A DNA stretch of 60,069 nucleotides from Deltaproteobacteria bacterium CG11_big_fil_rev_8_21_14_0_20_45_16 (GTDB taxonomy: Bacteria > Bdellovibrionota > UBA2394). A model generated the notes under the pieces. That model did not search any database. It was not told the DNA's origin and saw nothing but the letters and a program-made list of their open reading frames with translations. This document shows positions 29,361 to 38,713 of this stretch, in pieces. The translations under genes were made by a program, and so were the position numbers. Where the stretch lies: NCBI GenBank assembly GCA_002787535.1, contig PCXB01000078.1, positions 1-60,069 of the forward strand. Reading direction: 5' to 3'. How positions within the stretch are numbered: position 1 is the first letter of the stretch; every line of letters starts with the position of its first letter.

Positions 29361-29822
29361 ATGCTCCAGATGTTAAAAGCCAAGATTCATAAAGCCTGCG
29401 TGACACGTGCGGACGTCGAGTATGAAGGTAGCTTTGGTATGGATGCAGGGGTTATGAAACAAGTCGGGATTTTGAATTTTGAAGCCGTGGAAATCTATAA
29501 TATCTCTAACGGTGCTCGAGTCAAAACCTATGCGATCCCCTTACCTGCCGGCTCGCGCCGATTCGAAAGTAACGGAGCGGCGGCTCATTTGATTAAAGAA
29601 GGCGACATCGTAATTGTAGCCTGTTACTCGCTTCTTTCAGATAACGAACTTTCTGCTTTCAAAGGTCCGCAAATAGCCTTGTTGGATCCCCGAAATAATC
29701 ACCTTAAGAAGCTTTATCAACCGGACTGGCGAAGAGCTGATGGCTCCAAAGCTCTTGAGGATTTTGACATTCTCCATGGTGACAAACATAATACGCTGGC
29801 CCTGGACCCCACTTGGATTTGA
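29361..29822 (+). CDS. panD: aspartate 1-decarboxylase with C-terminal extension
   Basis: Makes beta-alanine for pantothenate and CoA synthesis. It is a pyruvoyl enzyme formed by self-cleavage at a Gly-Ser bond. Here YEGS at 21-24 gives cleavage between Gly23 and Ser24, with [15 protein letters not shown] matching the E. coli VTHADLHYEGSCAID region. [20 protein letters not shown] and [19 protein letters not shown] are the other family blocks. The usual enzyme is about 126 residues; this one is 153. The extra residues are encoded in a stretch that overlaps the 3' end of the convergent yyaL-like gene by 119 bases. No other pan gene is in the window. Confidence 0.93.
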
Positions 29823-31695
29823 GTACTGAAAGACTCTCGAGCTCCTGATCTTCACGATCCCAAACAAAAAGCTTATTGGCCCCTATGTAATCCTTAGAAA
29901 TCGCTTGCAAACCTAGTTCTCCAGGCTGAACGGCCACAATGAGACTGGACCTACTTTCCTGAAGGGCTAAAACAAATCGTCCAAAACCGCCGCACTGTTG
30001 GAGCGCCGACCCCATAATAGCGACAGAAGACTTTTCAAAAGCTCGGGCATACTTTGCTTCGGTCGTCCATTGATGCATTTGATCCATTACCGATACAGCA
30101 ACCGCATAGGGCGAAGGCAGGGCCCCATCAAAGATATCCTTTGAGCGCAAAAGAATGTCCGCTTGATTCTGCGAGCTCATCCAAAAACCTCCAACTTCGT
30201 CGTCATAGAAGTCCTCAAGCAAAGCATTCGACAGACTTTGAGCGCGCTCAAAGTCTTCAAAACGTCCAACATATTGAAAATGTCTCAGGAAGGCTTCTGC
30301 CAAATAACTGTAGTCTTCGAGAAAGCCCATTTTAGTTACACCATCTTCATAAATGACATGCGCGAGCGAAGATCCTGTCCAGCCACGACTCCAAATGGAA
30401 TCCAAGGTCCGCCCCACAAGAGTTTTGAGCTCATCAAGCTGAAAAACAAAAGAGGCCTTACTTAGTGCACTCAACATGAGGGCGTTCCAGCTAACTTGGA
30501 TTTTCCTATCTGTTTCAGGCTTCACACGTCTCGAGCGAATTTCTTGAAGACCTCTTTTGAGTCTTTTGAACTTTAGCCAAACATCTTCTGGAGCGTCCTC
30601 TTTAAAATAGATGATGTTTCTTGATTCAAAATTTCCAGAAGGATGAATATCCAATGTTTGTAAAAGCTCAGGCTCGAGGAGCGACTTCAGATCGTCATAC
30701 TGCCAAACGTAAAATTCGCCTTCTTCATGATTTGAATCTGCATCGATCGAAGAAAAAAAGCCCAACTGAGCACTGGTCATTTCTCGCTTCAGCCAGTCGA
30801 TGATATCCAAGGCGACCTCTCGATACAGGTCCTTTTTGGTCAGTTGCCAAGCTTCAACCAACACGTCGAGCATTAGAGCATTATCATAGAGCATCTTTTC
30901 GAAATGTGGCGTATGCCAAGCATGATCGGTTGAATAGCGATGAAAGCCGCCTCCAACTTGATCGTAGATCCCCCCAAAAATCATCGCTTTGAGACTCTTT
31001 TCAAGAATCTCGAGGCAATGATTATTTTTCGTTACAAAATAATGCCTCATTAAAAGTCGGTAATTCTCAGCATGAAAAAACTTTGGGGCAGAACCAAAAC
31101 CTCCGTGCTCCTTATCACTAATTTTCATTAAATTTTGAATGCTTCGGTTTTCCAACTCAGTCGCCTGATCCAAAGGTTGAGCTTCAAAATAGCGCCCCGA
31201 TTGAAATAAGGCGTGGGTTAAACCATCGGAATTCTTTTTAACTGCGTCGGCTTGCTCATGAAATGCCTTGTCAATCTCTGTCAGGACCTGCCTAAAAGAC
31301 GGCCTAGATTTCATAGGCTCTGGGGGGAAATAAGTACCTCCAAAGAAGGGCCTCAACTCGGGAGTCAAAAAAACATTCAATGGCCAGCCGCCATGCCCCG
31401 TCATTAGCTGAACTGCTTTCATATAAAGCGCATCCAAGTCGGGGCGCTCCTCACGATCCAGTTTAATCGACACAAATTTTTCATTTAGAATCTGAGCGAT
31501 TTCCTGGTCTGAAAAACTCTCCCTCTCCATGACATGACACCAATGACAACTCGAATAGCCAATGCTCAAAAAGATTGGTTTTTTCTCGTTACGAGCTTTT
31601 TCTAAAGCCTCAGTTCCCCAACTAAACCAAGCTACTGGATTGTCTTGATGTTGTCTGAGGTAGGCAGAAGCTTCGAGTGATAAAGAGTTTTTCAT
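29704..31695 (-). CDS. YyaL/DUF255 thioredoxin-domain protein (spermatogenesis-associated protein 20 family)
   Basis: A 663-residue protein with an N-terminal thioredoxin-like domain and a C-terminal alpha/alpha barrel like that of glycan epimerases. The start shows [18 protein letters not shown], then [18 protein letters not shown] with CxxC at Cys50/Cys53, and [39 protein letters not shown] and GGTYFPPE follow, all standard for the family. [31 protein letters not shown]-type barrel residues appear at about 245-270. The C-terminus [15 protein letters not shown] is the conserved end. Its biochemical function is not established. The last 119 bases overlap panD on the other strand. Confidence 0.9.
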
Positions 31696-31822: not shown

Positions 31823-33181
31823 ATGGCAACAAAAGCAAAAACCAAGGCAAAAGCAAAAACCAAAGCAAAGGCAAAAAATATGAGCAAAAAAGCCACTAAG
31901 CCTAAAAAACAAGCCTCTTCGCCCAAAAAGAAGCTAAGCATTAAACAAGCGCGCTCCAAAACAAAAGCAGCCCCAAAACCTGCCAAAGCTCCCAAGGTAG
32001 CGAAAGCCCCCACAGAAAAGGCCATTAAACAGCCAGTGTTTAAGGGAACGATTCCTCTGGGCAACCCCGCTAAGCTCTTTATGGAGATATGGAACCCAAA
32101 ACATGAGAGCTTTTTTATGGGTATTAAGAAGCTTTTTTCAGAATATTTGGTTCCAGGGACAACGGACAAACAACGGGAAGAGAATGGCTCTCAAATTATT
32201 GAGAAAATTGAAGCCATGCTTCGAAAAGAGCCGCTTGATGCTGGCTTCATTGAGCAATTGGCTGAACGTTTTCCAAAAGATAGAATTCATCAAATTGCCT
32301 CCATCATGTCGATGAAGCCAAGGTCAACGATCCGACTTAATGTACTCAAAGCGGATATCAATGGGTTTGCTCAGAGCAAGGCCGCGGACGATTTAAAAAT
32401 TAAACGATGTCAATACAGCCCTTGGGCCTTTGATGTGCCCGCCAGTGTGAATCCAACCGATCACCCCGCCTTTGAAAAGGGACTGTATGAGCTGGAAGAT
32501 GAATCTTCTCAATTAGCCAGTCTAATGGCAAATGCGCGAGCTGGTCAGCGCGTTCTCGATATGAGTGCCCGCGATGGCGATCACACATTGACCCTTGCGG
32601 CCATGATGAAAAATAAAGGCTCCATTTTTGTTTACGATTCTGACCCCATGAAACTTAAAATTTTGAAGCAGAGAGCTCAAAAGGCTGGGGTAGAAAATAT
32701 TCGAATTCTTACCGACGCGCAGGTAGGCGAAGTTAAAGGATTGGATATTGTCCTTATCGATGCTCCCTGCTCGGGTTCTGGTTCACTTGCAAGACAACCA
32801 GAACTGAAGTGGCGATTTAAAAAAGACGATCTTCCTAAGCTGCAAAAGCTCCAGGCAGCACTTATCCGGGAAGGGGCTCGAAAACTCAAACTTGGGGGTC
32901 GACTGATTTACGTTACGACAAGTTTAAATCGATCAGAAAACGAAGCTCAAATTGACCATTTCATGAGGCAATCGCACAATTCCTACCGGATCGTTCCGGC
33001 TCTCGAATATTTCAAAGAATGTGTGGTGCCCTATATAAAAAATTTCTTTGGACAAAATTTGACGGAAGAACAAATTCAAAGCTTCGCGGAAGCGAATCCT
33101 TTTATGCTTCTTTCACCAGACATCCATGGCTGCAATGGAATGTTCATTGCGATCATTGAGCGGATAAGAATTAGCAACTAA
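31823..33181 (+). CDS. RsmB/NOP2-like RNA methyltransferase homologue lacking the catalytic cysteine
   Basis: The fold is that of RNA m5C methyltransferases. PYSPWAFDVPAS and GLYELEDESSQLASL precede the SAM domain, which has motif IV LIDAPCSGSGSLARQPELKW and LRxGARKLKLGGRLIYVTTS. Two key sites are changed. Motif VI, normally TCS with the nucleophile cysteine, reads TTS (ACA codon at 32918-32920). Motif I, normally DxCAAPGGKT, reads DMSARDGDHT. The motif IV cysteine is kept. A lysine/alanine-rich tail (about 65 residues) precedes the fold. The start is uncertain: ATG 31823 (MATKAK) is chosen, ATG 31814 and TTG 31805 are in frame, and ggag at 31807-31810 is badly spaced for each. Either a non-catalytic RNA-binding paralogue or an enzyme with an altered mechanism. 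Confidence 0.82.
   Translation: MATKAKTKAKAKTKAKAKNMSKKATKPKKQASSPKKKLSIKQARSKTKAAPKPAKAPKVAKAPTEKAIKQPVFKGTIPLGNPAKLFMEIWNPKHESFFMGIKKLFSEYLVPGTTDKQREENGSQIIEKIEAMLRKEPLDAGFIEQLAERFPKDRIHQIASIMSMKPRSTIRLNVLKADINGFAQSKAADDLKIKRCQYSPWAFDVPASVNPTDHPAFEKGLYELEDESSQLASLMANARAGQRVLDMSARDGDHTLTLAAMMKNKGSIFVYDSDPMKLKILKQRAQKAGVENIRILTDAQVGEVKGLDIVLIDAPCSGSGSLARQPELKWRFKKDDLPKLQKLQAALIREGARKLKLGGRLIYVTTSLNRSENEAQIDHFMRQSHNSYRIVPALEYFKECVVPYIKNFFGQNLTEEQIQSFAEANPFMLLSPDIHGCNGMFIAIIERIRISN
31826..31885 (+). repeat. low-complexity Lys-Ala-Lys-Thr coding repeat
   Basis: Imperfect repeats of gcaaaaaccaaggcaaaa encode alternating Lys/Ala/Thr (KAKTKAKAKTKAKAK) at the N-terminus of the RsmB-like protein. 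Such tails bind nucleic acid non-specifically and expand or shrink easily. Similar basic tails are common on RNA-binding proteins of this lineage. Confidence 0.75.
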
Positions 33182-33945
33182 AGACCCATAATATTATATC
33201 CGCAATCTACGTAAAGAACTTCGCCGGTAATGGCGCTAGAGGCCTTACTCGCCAAAAATAAGGCGGTCTGGCCAACGTCCTCGATCGTGATGTTTCGTCG
33301 CAAAGGAGCTTTGCTTTCAATGGACGATAAAATGCTCTTAAAGTCTTTGACCCCGCTGGCTGCCAAAGTCCGGATGGGCCCCGCAGAAATAGCATTCACA
33401 CGAATTCCTTTTTCCCCGATATCGGCCGCAAGATAGCGAACACTACTTTCCAAAGCTGCCTTCGCTACACCCATAACATTATAATTTGTCACGACACGTT
33501 CAGCACCATAGTAGCTCAGGCAAATGACAGAGCCTTTTGCCTTTTCGAGACTTGGCAAAAGCGCTCGGGTAACCCCGACAAGCGAATAGGCTGAAATCTC
33601 GACGGCTTTCAAAAAGCCCGCACGAGAAGTCTGACAAAATCCATGCTCCAAATCGGCTCTCTCCGCATAAGCTAGCGAATGAATAAGAACATCCAGCTCT
33701 CCACCCCACTGGTTATGAAGCTGCTGAGCCATCTTTTGAATCTCTTCGTCTGACCCAACATCACAAGGCAATATTATTTTGGCGCCCAATTCCTCGGCAA
33801 GGGGCCGCATCCGCTTCTCCACAAGGGGTATATAAGTAAAAGCTAGTTCCGCACCCGCTTCACGCAGAGCTTTAGCGATTCCGTAAGCGATACTTCGTTC
33901 ATTTGCGAGGCCCATGATGAGTGCTTTTTTGCCTTGGAGGTTCAT
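33178..33945 (-). CDS. fabI: enoyl-[acyl-carrier-protein] reductase, FabI type
   Basis: Reduces trans-2-enoyl-ACP with NADH in the last step of each fatty acid elongation cycle; the triclosan target in many bacteria. The 255-residue SDR protein shows LIMGLANERSIAYGIAKALR at the cofactor loop, the SLAYAERADLEHGF region, and the Tyr-x6-Tyr-x(6)-Lys catalytic group in YYGAERVVTNYNVMGVAKAA. ISAGPIRTLAASGVKDF follows, and the substrate loop is intact. It overlaps the convergent methyltransferase-like gene by 4 bases and stands alone. Confidence 0.95.
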   Translation of the reverse strand: MNLQGKKALIMGLANERSIAYGIAKALREAGAELAFTYIPLVEKRMRPLAEELGAKIILPCDVGSDEEIQKMAQQLHNQWGGELDVLIHSLAYAERADLEHGFCQTSRAGFLKAVEISAYSLVGVTRALLPSLEKAKGSVICLSYYGAERVVTNYNVMGVAKAALESSVRYLAADIGEKGIRVNAISAGPIRTLAASGVKDFKSILSSIESKAPLRRNITIEDVGQTALFLASKASSAITGEVLYVDCGYNIMGL

Positions 33946-37537: not shown

Positions 37538-38713
37538 ATGAGCATACTGAATACATTTCATAGTCGAGCTTCGGCTGTCGCGCTGCATCAAGATTTAATT
37601 TTGGAAGTGGAAACTCTATTGCAAGGACGATACGCGGACGCACTTGCCGTCTGCGGTGATCAGCGAATCTATGTGCTCGGCGCACTTCAGGGCGAGAAAT
37701 TAAAAGTACAACTTCTTGACGAATTTCGCCCCGGACAATGGAAGGCAAAAATTTTGGAAATCATGGAAGCGTCGACGCGTAGACGCAAAGCGGCTTGTCA
37801 GCACTTCGATGACTGTGGAGCCTGTCAAATTCAACACTGGAATTACGATTACCAAATTGAATGGAAACACAAAATGCTGCTTCAGCTCCTGGAGAATTCA
37901 AGCCTGGGGCCTAAAGTTCAAGAGCTTAAGATTCAAATCATGGCTGCGCCTTCAGAATATTTCTACCGCCAACATGCGCGCCTCTCCATTGCCGACAATA
38001 AACCGGCATTTTTTAAGGCTGGCTCACGGGTGACTGTAGGTCTCAATGAATGCCCGGTGATGAGCCATGCTCTATTCGCCTATGCTTGTGAAAAGGCCTC
38101 CGGACGTGAAACGTCATCTTCGATGCGGATACTCGATCCAATTGAGTTTGAAGGCCTATCTTTTGAATTTATACAGGGAAACCGCATTCCGGTTAGCCCA
38201 GCGAGTTTCATTCAGCCCAACCTCGCCGTCGCTCGAATGATCGGGCATAAACTAGAGAAAATTTGCTCAGAAAGTTCTCAAAAACGACTGGCGTTAGATC
38301 TCTTTTGCGGCTCGGGAAATTTTACAAGTCTTATCGCAAAATATTTTTCAAAAGTATTAGCGGTCGATGAATGTCATGAAGCCATTGAACTCGCAAGGCA
38401 AACTAATCCTTCGATCGAGTGGGTCGCAGGCAAAACAGATGATTTTCTGAAAGAGCTTTTTGAACGACCAAAGCAGCCACTCGATTTCTGCTTTTTAGAT
38501 CCACCGCGCAATGGAGCCTTTAGAGCGATGGAGGATCTAAAAAACTTGAAACCTACAACCGTGGCTTACTTGTCGTGCCAGCCCGATAGTCTCGTTCGAG
38601 ACCTAACGCGTCTTGTTAAAAATGACCATTACAGGATTCAAGATTGGATCATGATCGATCTGCTTCCCCAAACTAGGCATATCGAAAATCTAGTTATCTT
38701 AAAAATTTCGTAG
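37538..38713 (+). CDS. RlmD/TrmA-type RNA (uracil-5-)-methyltransferase with Fe-S cluster
   Basis: Methylates C5 of uracil in 23S rRNA or tRNA using SAM. A 391-residue protein: an N-terminal TRAM-like barrel (about 18-75), then Fe-S cysteines in CQHFDDCGACQIQHW (spacing C-x5-C-x2-C) with a later Cys in NECPVM. The SAM domain has LDLFCGSGNFTSLIA and FCFLDPPRNGAF. The catalytic nucleophile is in AYLSCQPDSLVRDL (usual SCNPxTLxRD). All key residues are intact, unlike the RsmB-like protein 5 kb upstream. RlmC, RlmD and TrmA activities cannot be told apart here. Single gene, divergent from the coiled-coil pair. Confidence 0.9.
   Translation: MSILNTFHSRASAVALHQDLILEVETLLQGRYADALAVCGDQRIYVLGALQGEKLKVQLLDEFRPGQWKAKILEIMEASTRRRKAACQHFDDCGACQIQHWNYDYQIEWKHKMLLQLLENSSLGPKVQELKIQIMAAPSEYFYRQHARLSIADNKPAFFKAGSRVTVGLNECPVMSHALFAYACEKASGRETSSSMRILDPIEFEGLSFEFIQGNRIPVSPASFIQPNLAVARMIGHKLEKICSESSQKRLALDLFCGSGNFTSLIAKYFSKVLAVDECHEAIELARQTNPSIEWVAGKTDDFLKELFERPKQPLDFCFLDPPRNGAFRAMEDLKNLKPTTVAYLSCQPDSLVRDLTRLVKNDHYRIQDWIMIDLLPQTRHIENLVILKIS

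Follow-up and report, generated by a model that had tools for sequence, protein, structure and literature searches.

Does a full-length RsmB-like gene whose product has lost the catalytic cysteine of m5C methyltransferases still encode an enzyme, or is its protein kept for another function? This question is raised by a locus on contig PCXB01000078.1 of the Deltaproteobacteria bacterium CG11_big_fil_rev_8_21_14_0_20_45_16. The whole stretch of DNA that was analyzed (60,069 bp, hereafter the window) contains a putative pseudo-RsmB gene at 31823–33181 on the plus strand, encoding a protein of 452 aa in an open reading frame that runs from ATG 31823 to a stop at 33181. Earlier in-frame starts are possible at ATG 31814 and TTG 31805; a GGAG sequence lies 3 bases 5' of ATG 31814 and 12 bases 5' of ATG 31823, and the choice of start codon is uncertain. 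The window protein matched the Pfam model PF01189 with E = 8.8e-33 (114 bits at a cut-off of 27). Its scores with the NCBIfam RsmB models were below their cut-offs: 158.5 bits versus an equivalog cut-off of 269.05 for TIGR00563 and 182.2 bits versus 319 for NF011494. A search of PHROGs gave no match for this protein.

According to the original prediction, motif VI of this protein reads TTS instead of the TCS that contains the nucleophile, and its motif I is scrambled. Both statements were borne out when we compared it with 111 distinct homologues, comprising every row read except the five members of its own family and one further homologue, L022. Motif VI of the window protein is YVTTSLNRSENE; its TTS (T365-T366-S367; 32915–32923, plus strand) contains Thr366, encoded by ACA at 32918–32920, in place of the nucleophilic Cys, which is present in 111/111 of the other homologues. 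In the broken motif I, DMSARDGDHT (32558–32587, plus strand), the universal Lys is replaced by His254 (codon 32582–32584); Lys was found here in 110/110 of the other homologues. Motif IV, DAPCSGSG (32759–32782, plus strand), contains Asp313 and Cys316, each of which is present in all 111. It had also been noted, correctly, that Cys cannot be converted to Thr by a single base change (TGY to ACN).

In human NSUN6 the residues Lys248, Asp323, Cys326 and Cys373 touch the target base (PMC10249782), and this set is described as strictly conserved (PMC10354557). The motif I Lys column probably corresponds to NSUN6 Lys248, since it is the sole invariant Lys column. In total, 14 columns were at least 97% constant in the 111-homologue comparison (columns with a letter in 80% of the rows). 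Four homologues were omitted from the motif comparison, namely L059, with an in-frame stop in the stretch, and L067, L075 and L080, which are cut off. Both cysteines are present in the first three of them, and L080 stops short of motif VI.

Orthologues of the gene were found in all four other genomes of the same bacterial family (G001–G004), a group of uncultured relatives of Bdellovibrio that most likely is the UBA2394 lineage of GTDB within Bdellovibrionota, and are 49–57% identical to the window copy. The same five genomes are all those examined of this family, its order and its class; they are draft genomes, metagenome-assembled as far as their titles show, and are 76–96% complete. The pseudo-RsmB gene stands alone, flanked by divergent and convergent genes. 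It lies in a conserved block, where it is preceded by a gene for a DUF255/thioredoxin-domain protein (29704–31695, minus strand) and followed by genes for a FabI-type enoyl-ACP reductase (33178–33945, minus strand), a cyclic-nucleotide-binding protein and a glycerol-3-phosphate dehydrogenase. Both flanks match in three of the four relatives, and the fourth matches on the left, its contig ending inside the gene. An RNA m5U methyltransferase gene (PF05958) from the same syntenic block, located at 37538–38713 on the plus strand, served as an internal control. The Ser-Cys motif of this enzyme has been retained in the window as well as in the three relatives that were read, which argues against both poor sequence and a general loss of RNA methylation. 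The motif has persisted although the m5U methyltransferases of the different family genomes share only about 30% identity.

We looked for TCS in the four orthologues and did not find it. The column of the motif VI Cys contains Ser in G001 and G004 and Tyr in G003; the G002 gene is split over two contigs, and its second piece begins with Ser at this column. The nucleophile is therefore absent from all five family members (the G002 fragment counted), Thr itself being the residue of the window copy. The relatives use the codons TCG, TCG and TCA for Ser and TAT for Tyr, and the presence of Ser and Tyr in these genomes makes Ser a likely intermediate step in the change from Cys to Thr.

The other catalytic positions are affected as well. 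None of the five members has the motif I Lys, one has the motif IV Cys, which is the releasing residue, and two have the motif IV Asp. Asp313 and Cys316 are retained together only in the window copy, and Cys316 is replaced by Ser in 4/4 relatives. Across the family, the former catalytic columns read H/T/S/H/N (motif I Lys), D/H/E/D/H (motif IV Asp), C/S/S/S/S (motif IV Cys) and T/S/Y/S, with one more S in the G002 fragment (motif VI Cys); the active-site columns of the five members have not converged on any new residue. Among the remaining constant columns, the initial Met disregarded, the structural residues S229, G252, P315, Q344, G359, Y363, E372 and P432 are retained in all family members that have a letter there, D246 is retained in four of five, and the motif II acid (Asp or Glu) is found together with G252 in all five. 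The motif I Asp is replaced by Ile in G003.

For the domain, pN was 0.24–0.34 versus a pS of 0.74–0.89 in 10/10 pairs, where pS is near saturation and the direction of the difference alone counts. This direction indicates that the frame is under purifying selection. Selection had been predicted from the intact motif IV of the window copy; the conclusion stands, while the reason given for it fails, as the Cys of this motif is Ser in the four relatives. In the tree of homologues the five family members form one clade (SH-aLRT 100), the stem of which measures 1.54 changes per column versus 0.19–0.38 for its end branches. Judged by these branch lengths, fast change was followed by constraint. The tree was built without the near or exact copies L039, L047, L050, L044, L045, L046 and L051; L113, L114 and L117, which are identical to L044, L046 and L045, respectively, are likewise absent from it. 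In an 81-row comparison, the family members agree at 47 columns on a residue that is rare elsewhere, which is Lys or Arg at 13 of them. L078, a homologue with a long branch and both cysteines, was omitted from this comparison and included in that of 111 homologues.

Could another enzyme of the same type have taken over the lost activity? As had been proposed, an intact RsmB was sought elsewhere in the window's own genome. No other PF01189 gene above the cut-off was found there, the only further match being a sub-cut-off one of 21.5 bits on contig C47, and none of the five family genomes (76–96% complete) contains a second one above the cut-off. It is unlikely that an intact second copy is hidden in assembly gaps five times. 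Positions C967 and C1407 of 16S rRNA are C in all four 16S genes found in the five genomes, one of which yielded none; thus, the target loops are unchanged. A search for 23S rRNA in the window's own genome found none.

Among 368 genomes of the phylum, 264 contained a PF01189 match at 1e-8 and 104 did not, so a lineage that needed only to drop methylation could have lost the gene altogether. The genomes without a match include a run of genus g35 in family f9, and RsmB/F was seemingly lost outright in several lineages. We also inspected 26 low-scoring PF01189 matches (42–124 bits) from 24 genomes with weak best scores. Both cysteines were present in 26/26; therefore, a low score is no proxy for the loss of catalytic residues, and the decay is specific.

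A dead RsmB/F homologue was observed in another family of the phylum, represented by G016 alone among the genomes examined. This homologue (L022; G016:C126:3937–4695, plus strand) contains VAAGKGERATH, YLPSSETG and AVSSLLPEEGE, and all four catalytic residues are gone here too (R, Y, S, S). It differs from the proteins of the five genomes in being tail-less, in its position outside the five-member clade, where it forms a long branch of unsure placement, and in the presence of an intact copy in the same genome (L086 on C176). Two RsmB-like matches with in-frame stops, G224:C5:136552–137379 with three TAA and G195:C157:8182–8964 with one TAG, are candidate decaying copies or matches overrunning a gene end.

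The window protein begins with a Lys/Ala-rich tail (residues 1–74; 31823–32044), in which K+R make up 37% of the first 70 residues. This proportion is 33–49% in all five orthologues; the other rows have at most 30%, with a median of 17%. The tail is followed by a helical N-terminal segment (residues 75–135; 32045–32227), an RsmF_N or ferredoxin-like RNA-binding subdomain with the invariant residues R171 and N173 (residues 140–222; 32240–32488; PF17125, below its cut-off), and the PF01189 methyltransferase domain as delimited by Pfam (residues 237–393; 32531–33001), all on the plus strand.

AlphaFold predicts a full fold for residues 75–452 with a pLDDT of 94.9. In VIA-align comparisons the structures best matched by this model were Nop2 on a nascent pre-60S particle (8esq_q; Z 36.7, rmsd 1.7, 289 aligned), PH0851 (2yxl; Z 36.5, rmsd 3.4, 333 aligned), RsmF (3m6w; Z 35.1, rmsd 1.8, 285 aligned) and Fmu with SAM (1sqf; Z 34.3, rmsd 3.1, 326 aligned); ranks within 1 Z are ties, and the matches are relatives. 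E. coli Fmu and PH0851 can be aligned from model residues 5–6 onward, within the helical segment, and the N-terminal helices may thus be a remnant of a NusB-like domain. The NusB Pfam model gave no match at E 0.001 in the window protein or in three homologues of normal length.

We consider it probable that the locus encodes a family-wide pseudoenzyme that arose from an RsmB-type 16S rRNA m5C methyltransferase and was kept for methylation-independent RNA binding, most likely in 30S assembly. Because both the nucleophile and the motif I Lys are gone, the window protein would not be expected to form m5C by the known route (PMC6409601). The non-catalytic rRNA-binding factor of the original prediction holds as far as sequence goes, in view of the loss in 5/5 genomes, the full-length frames, the synteny, the purifying selection and the basic tail. 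RNA binding is suggested by R171 and N173, the RsmF_N-like subdomain, the conserved basic positions and the tail. With the last three of these elements the pseudo-RsmB would still bind its RNA, probably 16S rRNA in the vicinity of helix 31, where position 967 is still C. Its retention may be explained by help in 30S maturation, such as the RsmB protein may give apart from methylation.

By analogy, a ribosomal role appears likeliest because of several precedents. In an E. coli delta-rsmB strain 17S rRNA accumulates, and an assembly role of RsmB was suggested (PMC7056703). Deletion of yeast Nop2 is lethal, and mutation of both its cysteines gave no phenotype (PMC4510066), while human NOP2 with the C513A substitution rescues rRNA processing (PMC9561284). 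Yeast Nop2 and human NOP2 (NSUN1) share the fold of the window protein, and the cysteine-independent role in ribosome assembly is known from them; unlike the window protein, natural Nop2 has both cysteines, methylates and acts on the large subunit. The mitochondrial NSUN4-MTERF4 pair illustrates a dual function of NOP2/Sun proteins in methylation and monosome assembly, as described in the abstract of PMC3916286; NSUN4 is reported to differ in that it methylates 12S rRNA and acts in assembly together with MTERF4. The closest bacterial counterparts, RsmB/Fmu (the 16S m5C967 methyltransferase) and RsmF, are alike in Pfam domain, fold, PF17125-like N-terminal subdomain and structural residues. The family differs from them in lacking the motif VI Cys and the motif I Lys (5/5) and the motif IV Cys (4/5), and in having the Lys-rich tail.

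An alternative is that the dead methyltransferase has left the ribosome and that its basic tail has made it a general RNA or DNA binder, of a nucleoid-like or RNA-chaperone type. We regard this as unlikely, although not negligible. A tail with 33–49% K/R, unlike that of other rows, would suit such a protein, as would the isolated gene with its divergent and convergent neighbours, and the catalytic residues would be lost in this case too. However, R171, N173 and the whole RsmF_N-like and Rossmann core are retained, which would be needless for a mere carrier of a tail. Basic tails are also found on ribosome-associated proteins.

It is considerably less probable that the chemistry has changed, with SAM still being used to methylate another atom or target by means of new catalytic residues. 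SAM may indeed still bind, given that G252 and the motif II acid are retained in all five members and that the window copy also has DAPC and Asp313. However, the catalytic columns vary within the family with no new residue fixed in them, and G003 has lost even the motif I Asp to Ile.

A special form of this idea, namely an m5C enzyme of DNMT type in which the motif IV Cys is the nucleophile, was suggested by the original prediction and can hardly be maintained. The DAPC of the window copy is intact, and DNMTs do use the motif IV Cys as the nucleophile (PMC6409601). However, this Cys is Ser in 4/4 orthologues under otherwise equal constraint. In addition, PF00145, which we take to be the DNA-methylase domain, gave no match at E 0.001 in the window protein. 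Because the motif IV Cys is gone in all four relatives, the DAPC of the window copy is, by this comparison, a leftover and no new nucleophile.

Equally improbable is a sequencing error, a frameshift mosaic or a decaying pseudogene, for which the draft-genome contig and the odd motifs would speak: independent assemblies of five genera share the losses and add further ones in open frames (one split at a contig end), the copies are 49–57% identical with pN well below pS, and the adjacent m5U methyltransferase is intact.

For the pseudoenzyme retained as an RNA-binding protein, an order of the losses can be proposed. Loss of the motif VI Cys would have preceded that of the motif IV Cys, an order read from one clade, because an enzyme deprived of the motif IV Cys alone would remain trapped on RNA. 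When only the motif IV Cys is mutated, the covalent intermediate is stable (PMC6409601), and changes of the releasing Cys have often proved deleterious (PMC4510066). The window gene, which has lost the Cys of motif VI and retains that of motif IV, is in the state that an intermediate would show, and its relatives lack both cysteines. A regain of Cys in the window lineage is a less parsimonious alternative to this order.

The fold is ordinary, and catalytically dead NOP2/Sun proteins are of a known kind; what is unusual here is a lineage-wide, sole-copy, tailed RsmB-family pseudoenzyme. Our literature search, made at the level of listings and with subscription journals mostly outside its coverage, found no report of an RsmB/RsmF pseudoenzyme in bacteria. 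More tentatively, and with somewhat less than even confidence, we suggest that in a class-level lineage the sole gene of the RsmB family has come to encode a 30S assembly factor, dedicated to this role and free of methylation, that the order of losses was fixed by the chemistry with the window gene as the intermediate, and that the G016:C126 homologue hints at recurrence. Many rRNA methyltransferases are suspected to act as assembly checkpoints apart from methylation, and active enzymes mix both roles. If our reading is true, a lineage that has dispensed with the chemistry but not with the protein would indicate that selection there maintains RsmB for its binding role. The pseudo-RsmB would then be a natural separation-of-function protein, testable in an E. 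coli rsmB deletion strain.
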